A DNA stretch of 62,692 nt. Origin: a bacterium (GTDB taxonomy: Bacteria; Campylobacterota; Campylobacteria; Campylobacterales; Arcobacteraceae). The notes under the pieces were generated by a model that did not search any database, was not told the origin of the DNA, and saw only the letters and a list, made by a program, of their open reading frames with translations. Location of the stretch: assembly GCA_018816105.1 (NCBI GenBank), contig JAHIWE010000023.1, positions 1-62,692 of the forward strand. Direction: 5' to 3'. The translations under genes and the position numbers were made by a program. Within the stretch, counting starts at the first letter, position 1. Each line of letters starts with the position of its first letter. Below are positions 11,367-13,224 of the stretch, in pieces.

Positions 11367-11864
11367 TTATAAAATATTCTCTTTTATCTCATTTACCCAA
11401 TTTTCAATTCTTTCATCTGTTAAATCACTTTGATTATCTTCATCTAAAATTAACCCAACAAACTTATCTTCTAGTTGAGCTTTAGAAGCATCATGATAAT
11501 AACCTTGCGTTGAGGTAAAACCTACAATTTCTGCTCCACTTAAATTAACTTGTTCATAAATAATTCCTAAGGCACTGCAAAACTCATCACTATAACTTTC
11601 TTGATCACCTAATCCAAATAAAGCAATAGTTTTACTTGATAAGTCTAATTTACAAAAATCAGCCCAAGCATCTTCCCAATCATCATTTAACTCTCCATCT
11701 CCCCAAGTTGATCCACCTAAGATAATTTTGTCATAGTTATTGATTTTTTCAATTTTAGTTCCTGCTAAATCAAATACTTCAATACCATCTAATTTTGAAG
11801 ATATTTTAGAAGCTATTTCTTCACTGTTTCCAGTACTACTTGCAAAAAATATTGCTGTTGCCAT
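11367..11864 (-). CDS. fldA: Flavodoxin (long-chain)
   Basis: Flavodoxin carries low-potential electrons on FMN and replaces ferredoxin under iron limitation; in Campylobacterota it is the electron carrier of pyruvate and 2-oxoglutarate oxidoreductases. The phosphate loop is FFASSTGNSEE at the N-terminus; the isoalloxazine loops are GGSTWGDGELNDDWE and GLGDQESYSDEFC. The roughly 20-residue insertion ending in GYYHD makes it the long-chain type; 165 aa is normal. It is the last gene of a four-gene operon starting at 13050 under two Fur boxes, which fits an iron-sparing role. Confidence 0.95.
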   Translation of the reverse strand: MATAIFFASSTGNSEEIASKISSKLDGIEVFDLAGTKIEKINNYDKIILGGSTWGDGELNDDWEDAWADFCKLDLSSKTIALFGLGDQESYSDEFCSALGIIYEQVNLSGAEIVGFTSTQGYYHDASKAQLEDKFVGLILDEDNQSDLTDERIENWVNEIKENIL

Positions 11865-11879
11865 TTTTCATCCTTTTAT

Positions 11880-12641
11880 TTAGTTTTTTATAATTGATCT
11901 TAAAGAGTATGGAATAGCTTTTATTTGATACTCTTCATTTTTTAATTCATCAACATAAATAGGTATTTGTTTTTTAAATTCGTCATTTTTTGGATAGGCT
12001 AAATATATTTGATAATATTCACCTTTTTTAATTGATTTTATTGCATCTTCTAATTCATCATTTATATTTGGCTTTTTAACTTCAATATCTTTCCAAGAAG
12101 TATAAACTTTTAATCCAATAAAATCTTTTGACTTAATACAAATAGAATCTCCTAAATCAATTACTGTTTTATCACTATGTAATTTTTTTATTTTCTTTAA
12201 TACAAATTCATGAAATAATAAATGTTTATCAATAAGTACTTGCATTTTATTATTACTATAACAAATAGATATAAGTTTTGCAAGTGGAAGTAAATTTTTA
12301 TTTGATATAAAAATTGAATCTTTTGTTTTTGGATTTAAATAGTTATTAATTATTTTTGTAGAATTAAGGCAAAAATTGAAACTTTGTTTACTACTATATT
12401 TATTTGTTTTTATAAAACTAATAGGAAGCATTTTTTTTATTTTATAAGAAAAAGCACTTTGCAATGGGAAAAATGATAATTTCTTTTGTTCATATTTAGA
12501 AAAATTGCAATATGATTGTAAAATATTATTGCTAAGATTTAAAAACATATGTCTTAATCTTATTAATGAATTAAATTCATCGAAATCTTTTGGTAGAAAT
12601 TCTTTTTCTTGAGTAAAACCAATTAAATTTTTATCTAACAT
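11880..12641 (-). CDS. Conserved hypothetical protein in Fur-boxed flavodoxin operon
   Basis: I do not recognise a family for this 253-aa, lysine- and isoleucine-rich soluble protein. It has no signal peptide or membrane helix. Two parts can be seen: an N-terminal helical half (about 20-120) and a C-terminal half with alternating beta segments (SICIKSKDFIGLKVYTSW, YYQIYLAYP). Four Cys are scattered, with no obvious metal motif. It starts in a TAATG overlap with the DUF2325 gene and ends 16 bases before fldA. From memory the same order (unknown, DUF2325, flavodoxin) occurs as Cj1384c-Cj1382c in C. jejuni, so the linkage appears conserved; that is the best hint to an iron- or redox-linked role. 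Confidence 0.7.
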   Translation of the reverse strand: MLDKNLIGFTQEKEFLPKDFDEFNSLIRLRHMFLNLSNNILQSYCNFSKYEQKKLSFFPLQSAFSYKIKKMLPISFIKTNKYSSKQSFNFCLNSTKIINNYLNPKTKDSIFISNKNLLPLAKLISICYSNNKMQVLIDKHLLFHEFVLKKIKKLHSDKTVIDLGDSICIKSKDFIGLKVYTSWKDIEVKKPNINDELEDAIKSIKKGEYYQIYLAYPKNDEFKKQIPIYVDELKNEEYQIKAIPYSLRSIIKN

Positions 12642-12970
12642 TATTTATCCTTTTTACAGTTTGCATAACACTCACTACAATCTTTTATACCCATTATTTT
12701 TACATATTCATCATAAACACAAGAGATAGATCTTTTTGCACAAATAAATGGAATATTTTTCTTTTTTGCTTCATTTTTATATTTAAGCATAGTATTATGG
12801 TTTAGAAATGAAGTTAACATTACTATGCAATCTGTATTTAGCGGAACTTTTTTCTTTGGTGCAGAAGATTTCTTTCTTGCATCCCAATGATTTATAGTTT
12901 TGGCACCTAAAGTTTCTAGCATTGAAGTTATTTGTGAGATTTGATCTCCTCCAATAATTAATACGCTCAT
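12641..12970 (-). CDS. DUF2325 domain protein
   Basis: The 109-aa protein follows the DUF2325 pattern: SVLIIGGDQISQI at the N-terminus, GAKTINHWDARK, DCIVMLTSFLNHNTMLKYKNEAKKKNIPFI and a Cys-rich end. The four cysteines near the C-terminus (SCVYDEY, then DCSECYANC) could bind metal. The family has no agreed function; members often sit in iron or redox operons. It is the second gene of the Fur-boxed operon, starting 14 bases after a 21-aa leader gene, with AAGGA as ribosome site. Confidence 0.8.
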   Translation of the reverse strand: MSVLIIGGDQISQITSMLETLGAKTINHWDARKKSSAPKKKVPLNTDCIVMLTSFLNHNTMLKYKNEAKKKNIPFICAKRSISCVYDEYVKIMGIKDCSECYANCKKDK

Positions 12971-12984
12971 TTAAAATCCTTTTA

Positions 12985-13050
12985 TTAACAAGTACAACCA
13001 GTTGGTTTTACTAAGTCAGTTTTTTTTTCAATGTCAAAACAAATAATCAT
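12985..13050 (-). CDS. Candidate 21-aa peptide with Cys-Thr-Cys end, first gene of Fur-boxed operon
   Basis: The ORF begins with ATG at 13048-13050, behind the strong site AAAGGATG, and ends in TAA at 12985-12987. The peptide starts MIICFDIEKK and ends PTGCTC, with Cys at positions 4, 19 and 21. The frame crosses a run of nine A residues without breaking. The stop is 14 bases before the DUF2325 start, and a Fur box centre lies 24 bases upstream of the ATG. It could be a small functional metal- or cluster-binding peptide, or a leader peptide that couples translation to cysteine or threonine supply. No known family is recognised. Confidence 0.5.
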   Translation of the reverse strand: MIICFDIEKKTDLVKPTGCTC

Positions 13051-13066
13051 TTCACATCCTTTATAT

Positions 13067-13081
13067 TGATAATCATTATTG
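13067..13081. promoter_or_regulatory. Fur box, proximal, upstream of the 21-aa peptide operon
   Basis: TGATAAT-C-ATTATTG matches the 7-1-7 Fur pattern with five of seven symmetric pairs. It lies 16 bases upstream of the peptide's ATG, where bound Fur would block transcription. Confidence 0.7.
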
Positions 13082-13119
13082 AAATAATAGTGGAAGTAAT
13101 CTTAAAGTATTATTAATAT

Positions 13120-13134
13120 TAAGAATGATTATCA
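13120..13134. promoter_or_regulatory. Fur box, distal, upstream of the 21-aa peptide operon
   Basis: TAAGAAT-G-ATTATCA keeps five of seven symmetric pairs of the Fur pattern. It is 53 bases from the proximal box, about five helical turns, on the same face of the DNA. Confidence 0.6.
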
Positions 13135-13224
13135 ATTGAATAATTAAGTTTTGGAAATTTCTTTTTTGTATTGTTAGATTTAAAATAAATTGTGAAAAGT
13201 AAGGGGATAAAAAAGTGGGGGGAT

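Follow-up and report, generated by a model that had tools for sequence, protein, structure and literature searches.

Cysteine-bearing ORFs that sense metal upstream of the genes they control have been described as CruR (DUF2946) and CutF (PMC9426467, PMC9973294). An ORF of similar outline heads a metal-regulated operon in the window (the whole stretch of DNA that was analysed, 62.7 kb), and it shares with these uORFs the presence of cysteines and of a conserved C-terminal motif. Its 21-aa product is far shorter, however, lacks the CXXC and the RAPP/proline motif and has instead a tail GCTC-stop with a C-x-C; no stem-loop or termination site accompanies it, and in other lineages it does not lie upstream. 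The terminator/antiterminator that an amino-acid attenuator has between leader and first gene was likewise not found for the peptide. In gene content the locus resembles Cj1384c-Cj1383c of C. jejuni, where a DUF2325 gene occurs with the same 253-aa family and a flavodoxin, the latter presumably encoded by Cj1382c/fldA next to cj1383c; it differs in that no CTC peptide was found in the Campylobacteraceae. FeoC and other small Feo partners are, like the peptide at one locus (L108), small proteins in a ferrous-iron uptake operon, and FeoC, which has a winged-helix fold, exceeds the 13-22 aa of the peptide several-fold in length. The C-T-C motif with its possible thiolate ligands recalls metallothioneins, which have many cysteines in repeated CxC motifs, whereas the peptide has two that are invariant. 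In C. jejuni both cj1384c and cj1383c are repressed by Fur and respond strongly to iron (PMC4491227, PMC3815106). In a photo-oxidation study of C. jejuni, no gene was induced by light more strongly than cj1384c (352-fold); the study suggested that the seven cysteines of Cj1384 have a redox or metal role, without giving a function, and the mutant showed raised light sensitivity at the highest dose only (PMC9426514). Neither cj1384 nor cj1383 is mentioned in the main text of a small-protein census of C. jejuni.

The operon in the window runs from the Fur boxes through the 21-aa peptide, DUF2325 and the 253-aa protein to the flavodoxin and contains the following features:

13115 to 13139, no strand assigned: distal Fur box TTGATAATCATTCTTAATATT, which forms a twin operator with the proximal box
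13062 to 13080, no strand assigned: proximal Fur box, 16/19 against GATAATGATAATCATTATC, abutting the ribosome site of the peptide and kept in relatives
13055 to 13062, minus strand: ribosome binding site AAAGGATG of the 21-aa peptide, kept in relatives
12985 to 13050, minus strand: gene of the 21-aa peptide, a 66-base ORF with product MIICFDIEKKTDLVKPTGCTC-stop, of which the tail DLVKPTGCTC-stop is nearly invariant
12641 to 12970, minus strand: DUF2325 protein of 109 aa (PF10087, E 6e-17), same family as Cj1384c
11880 to 12641, minus strand: 253-aa protein without a Pfam or NCBIfam family, AlphaFold model McrC-like (PD-(D/E)xK fold)
11367 to 11864, minus strand: long-chain flavodoxin (TIGR01752, E 4.5e-60), last gene of the operon

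The earlier note had placed a 66-base ORF between a near-consensus Fur box and the DUF2325 gene, with a strong ribosome site, a stop 14 bases before the next start and a flavodoxin as the final gene of the operon, and all of these were recovered. The spacer between the stop of the peptide and the DUF2325 ATG (12971-12984) measures exactly 14 bases. No other site in the window matches the 19-bp consensus as well as the proximal Fur box, whose score has an expectation of 0.1 from Markov shuffles. The distal box lies 35 bp beyond it, and the twin box recurs before peptide/DUF2325 in relatives. With Fur boxes in its promoter the operon is a predicted member of the Fur regulon, and it would be under Fur control in vivo. 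The same genome contains a second copy of the twin operator (L002, 1501-1575; G000 C64; 81% over 75 bp), directly 5' of a gene whose product, as read from the sequence, resembles the ferric-binding protein of an iron transporter. A longer N-terminal reading of the peptide ORF, which is open for 38 codons upstream in several species, was rejected: translated, the additional stretch is nothing but the Fur box, and it is the inner ATG that has the ribosome site in front of it.

The model of the DUF2325 protein shows a small domain of Rossmann-like type with a Cys-rich tail of low confidence, and a fold search with this model returned generic Rossmann-like matches only (maximum Z 9.1). The model of the 253-aa protein (pLDDT 84) matched McrC of T. 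gammatolerans over the length of the protein (VIA Z 14.0, 229 aligned, 3.7 A; Foldseek E 6.7e-5). The conserved region reads GDSI...YTSWKDI, and a DxK was not evident in alignment A4 (inspected by eye); the modelled fold is McrC-like, and the active site is apparently missing from it. Sequence searches of the PDB with the DUF2325 and the 253-aa protein recovered nothing, and no DUF2325 relatives were confirmed on viral contigs. The 253-aa gene and the flavodoxin gene are paired in many genomes of the order. One such pair adjoins a probable cysteinyl-tRNA synthetase gene whose product has a very Cys-rich C-terminal tail (CCAGLNEGCEDECKCENECECGCKKES; L206, 1290-1403), and in the operon of one MAG a 72-aa Cys-rich, zinc-ribbon-like protein is encoded in the interval between DUF2325 and the 253-aa gene (L137, 4309-4527).

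By tblastn the 21-mer was found in 17/31 genomes of the genus (a count over related species, which, here as in the following, are not independent of each other), and these copies lie immediately 5' of DUF2325 and downstream of twin Fur boxes. A profile search added more Arcobacteraceae genera and two other families, and about 40 versions of the peptide are now known, in the Arcobacteraceae and a few relatives. The suspicion of the earlier note that gene callers could have missed a conserved family was supported. The 21-mer matched no profile in Pfam or NCBIfam, although peptides so short score poorly on any profile. The peptides measure 13-22 residues, with an N-terminal half that varies in sequence and in length by whole-codon indels and that comprises only a few residues in the shortest cases (MKKNLIKPTGCTC). 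The tail conforms across the family to (D/N)L(V/I)xx(T/N/D)GCTC-stop: it is nearly fixed in the Arcobacteraceae, (D/N/E)L(V/I)(K/E)PTGCTC, and reads DLIKGNGCTC, DLIDPNGCTC, NLIQQDGCTC or DLINTNGCTC in remoter lineages. The third cysteine that had been pointed out at position 4 is present in the window peptide; it is no family trait, as only 16/39 GCTC peptides have a cysteine within the first 8 residues. Nearly all copies have a ribosome site 5' of the start codon.

A conserved CxC with synonymous substitutions, the check that had been proposed for a functional peptide, was indeed observed: omega is 0.13-0.16 for the last 10 codons, which contain many synonymous changes, and 0.88 for codons 2-11, and the variability per codon position is 0.133/0.014/0.366. 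The low omega in the tail, a sign of strong purifying selection, and the variability of the third position therefore indicate a coding sequence with a function in the C-terminus, and by this pattern of change the 21-aa ORF is a genuine conserved coding gene. In one species (L057) the tail runs 4 residues beyond CTC (MWGK) and this extension bears the ribosome site of DUF2325; a free C-terminus is thus the rule for the peptide, not a strict one.

The tail pattern is specific for this operon. Within 397 genomes of the phylum (D/N)L(I/V)xxxGCTC-stop yielded 15 matches, every one a peptide locus beside DUF2325, and the reversed control pattern yielded 0 in the same genomes. When the exact tail pattern in its TAA form was searched in 84,980 species, 23 of the 25 matches fell in Campylobacterota (Aliarcobacter, Arcobacter, Poseidonibacter, Malaciobacter, Sulfurospirillum arcachonense and MAGs), all within or adjoining the operon, with the proviso that at L166 the locus end leaves only the start of DUF2325 visible. 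The 2 other matches (MAGs of Cellvibrionales and Acidobacteria) have no well-placed start, ribosome site or operon neighbours and were set aside as chance. Fusions of the tail to bigger proteins were not found among the pattern matches.

The position of the gene within the operon is not conserved. In the Arcobacteraceae, the window included, the peptide is the first gene, ahead of DUF2325. In S. arcachonense DUF2325 precedes it and the 253-aa gene follows, whereas in a Campylobacterales MAG it comes after the 253-aa gene, with an intrinsic terminator some 55 nt further on. Loci that show it after DUF2325, flanked by DUF2325 and the 253-aa gene, and as the final gene ahead of a terminator are L134, L161 and L171, respectively. 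With gene names read from the sequence, the order is a Fur-like gene, DUF2325, the peptide and an ApbE-like gene in another MAG, and a porin gene, the peptide and DUF2325-FeoA-FeoB in L108; an isolated 13-mer 2.3 kb upstream of DUF2325 (L130) is a less sure member. A probable counterpart ORF of 25-46 aa, ending in LLFCKCTC or LLFKGCAC, was recovered in 15/24 Sulfurospirillum genomes, where it overlaps the flavodoxin stop in 14/15 and is followed by terminator-type inverted repeats (by eye). It has the same design (a loose N-terminus and a fixed C-x-C end) and occurs with the same gene set; it may be convergent instead of homologous.

Absence of the peptide near DUF2325 was judged from scans of about 4 kb on each side for ORFs with CxC-like ends. 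The ORF that was to be sought upstream of DUF2325 in relatives was encountered in the Arcobacteraceae and not in the Campylobacteraceae, Campylobacter included, where no CTC peptide was found and DUF2325, the 253-aa gene and the flavodoxin are present. Also within the genus it is absent from 12/29 DUF2325-bearing genomes. The earlier note had named absence or frame breakage in close relatives as telling against the peptide; absence does occur, no decayed frame was seen in the 12 genomes, and the 253-aa gene is mostly missing from them too. In the genus this gene adjoins DUF2325 in 16/16 testable peptide carriers vs 3/13 peptide-less DUF2325 loci, the remainder of which consist of DUF2325-flavodoxin or DUF2325 alone. 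Outside the genus the link is looser: the Campylobacteraceae have the 253-aa gene and no peptide, and 2 genomes have the peptide beside DUF2325 with no 253-aa gene adjoining. The DUF2325 proteins of one family in which no peptide gene was found (f13; L115, L116, L122, L123 and L125) have Cys-rich tails that end in CCNCEGKC, CECK, CPCN or CPCK, some of the CxC type.

Two functions had been put forward for the ORF, a tiny metal- or cluster-binding peptide or a leader that couples translation to the cysteine/iron status, and the gene order bears directly on this choice. At a leader uORF of the CruR/CutF kind, for which these metal-sensing systems are the precedents, ribosomes would respond to cysteine or iron on reaching the GCTC tail, and their stalling or termination there would determine how strongly DUF2325 and the downstream genes are expressed. 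In the Arcobacteraceae the position suits such a role, the peptide being the first ORF past the operator with the next start close behind. Arrest peptides typically have a conserved C-terminus and a variable N-terminus, a division that the peptide fits. Elsewhere, however, the gene lies 3' of the genes that it should control (DUF2325, the 253-aa gene, the flavodoxin) and twice it is the last gene ahead of a terminator-like repeat; a leader cannot operate from behind its supposed targets. In addition, the 14-nt inter-ORF spacer is too small for a terminator and no attenuator fits, the RNA fold is no better than that of shuffles (z -0.23), and in the 12 genus species without the ORF DUF2325 still has Fur-box-like sites. 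Contradicted by gene order, spacer and RNA fold, a leader is improbable, and the changing place of the gene in the operon makes a small protein the likely product; the Cys-tail peptide (metal, cluster or redox) is the half of the earlier proposal that we favour.

The relocation away from the Fur boxes, together with the codon-position pattern of change and the in-frame indels, also makes it hardly credible that there is no gene at all and that only DNA is conserved (e.g. as part of the operator or as a processing site), to which the tight linkage to the Fur box in the Arcobacteraceae might otherwise have pointed. The conserved C-terminal Cys-bearing part, the iron-starvation operon and its two uncharacterised proteins would agree with a RiPP-like metallophore precursor, of which the tail would be the core that is processed by an operon protein. 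We consider this very improbable, as known RiPP enzymes are absent among the operon genes (Pfam/NCBIfam) and the N-terminal half is almost free of selection and shrinks to a few residues, which a leader that is read by an enzyme should not do. The tail could alternatively act as a stand-alone redox or sulfur carrier, in which the flexible end KPTGCTC would shuttle thiols, a persulfide or electrons, with flavodoxin/DUF2325 on one side and a target on the other, as do the C-terminal Cys arms of DsrC/TusE or ribonucleotide reductase; KPTGC may resemble the C-termini of the DsrC type. The very short peptide, the selection on its tail, the cysteines near the C-terminus and the coupling to flavodoxin in Sulfurospirillum are all consistent with such a carrier, which we nevertheless hold to be unlikely as the whole explanation.

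Our preferred reading, which we consider rather probable, is that of a trans-acting microprotein with a thiolate tail and metal as the leading chemistry; binding of metal by the C-x-C tail, taken alone, is plausible but falls somewhat short of probable. In low iron Fur would leave the twin operator, and the cell would then produce the peptide alongside DUF2325, the McrC-like 253-aa protein and the flavodoxin. Its working part would be the last 9-10 residues, which end in Cys-Thr-Cys and usually at a free carboxyl end, and the N-terminal half would be a tolerant handle. The tail would provide thiolate ligands to iron or a different transition metal, or to a labile cluster, and could be a handle for the DUF2325/flavodoxin machinery; thiol redox or a sulfur-carrier tail would be the next choice after metal. 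As the third cysteine is not conserved (16/39), one peptide has two sure thiols, and metal binding would therefore need a dimer or a partner. Weighing against the microprotein is that the Campylobacteraceae, and within the genus 12 species, do without it. A wider reading, which we regard as doubtful, is that the free-standing C-x-C peptide would be a mobile component of an iron-starvation module not described before, in several Campylobacterota families (DUF2325, a catalytically dead McrC-like protein and flavodoxin, sometimes with FeoAB), and would deliver metal, sulfur or electrons; in some of the lineages that lack the gene, DUF2325 itself may carry a similar tail.

With the peptide, a microprotein family not described before, with a simple and testable motif, joins an operon that responds strongly to iron and whose DUF2325 and 253-aa proteins are uncharacterised. 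A clue to this module would be useful because Cj1384c topped the induction in the published light-stress study, and the analysis illustrates that genome comparison can recognise coding peptides as short as 13 residues.
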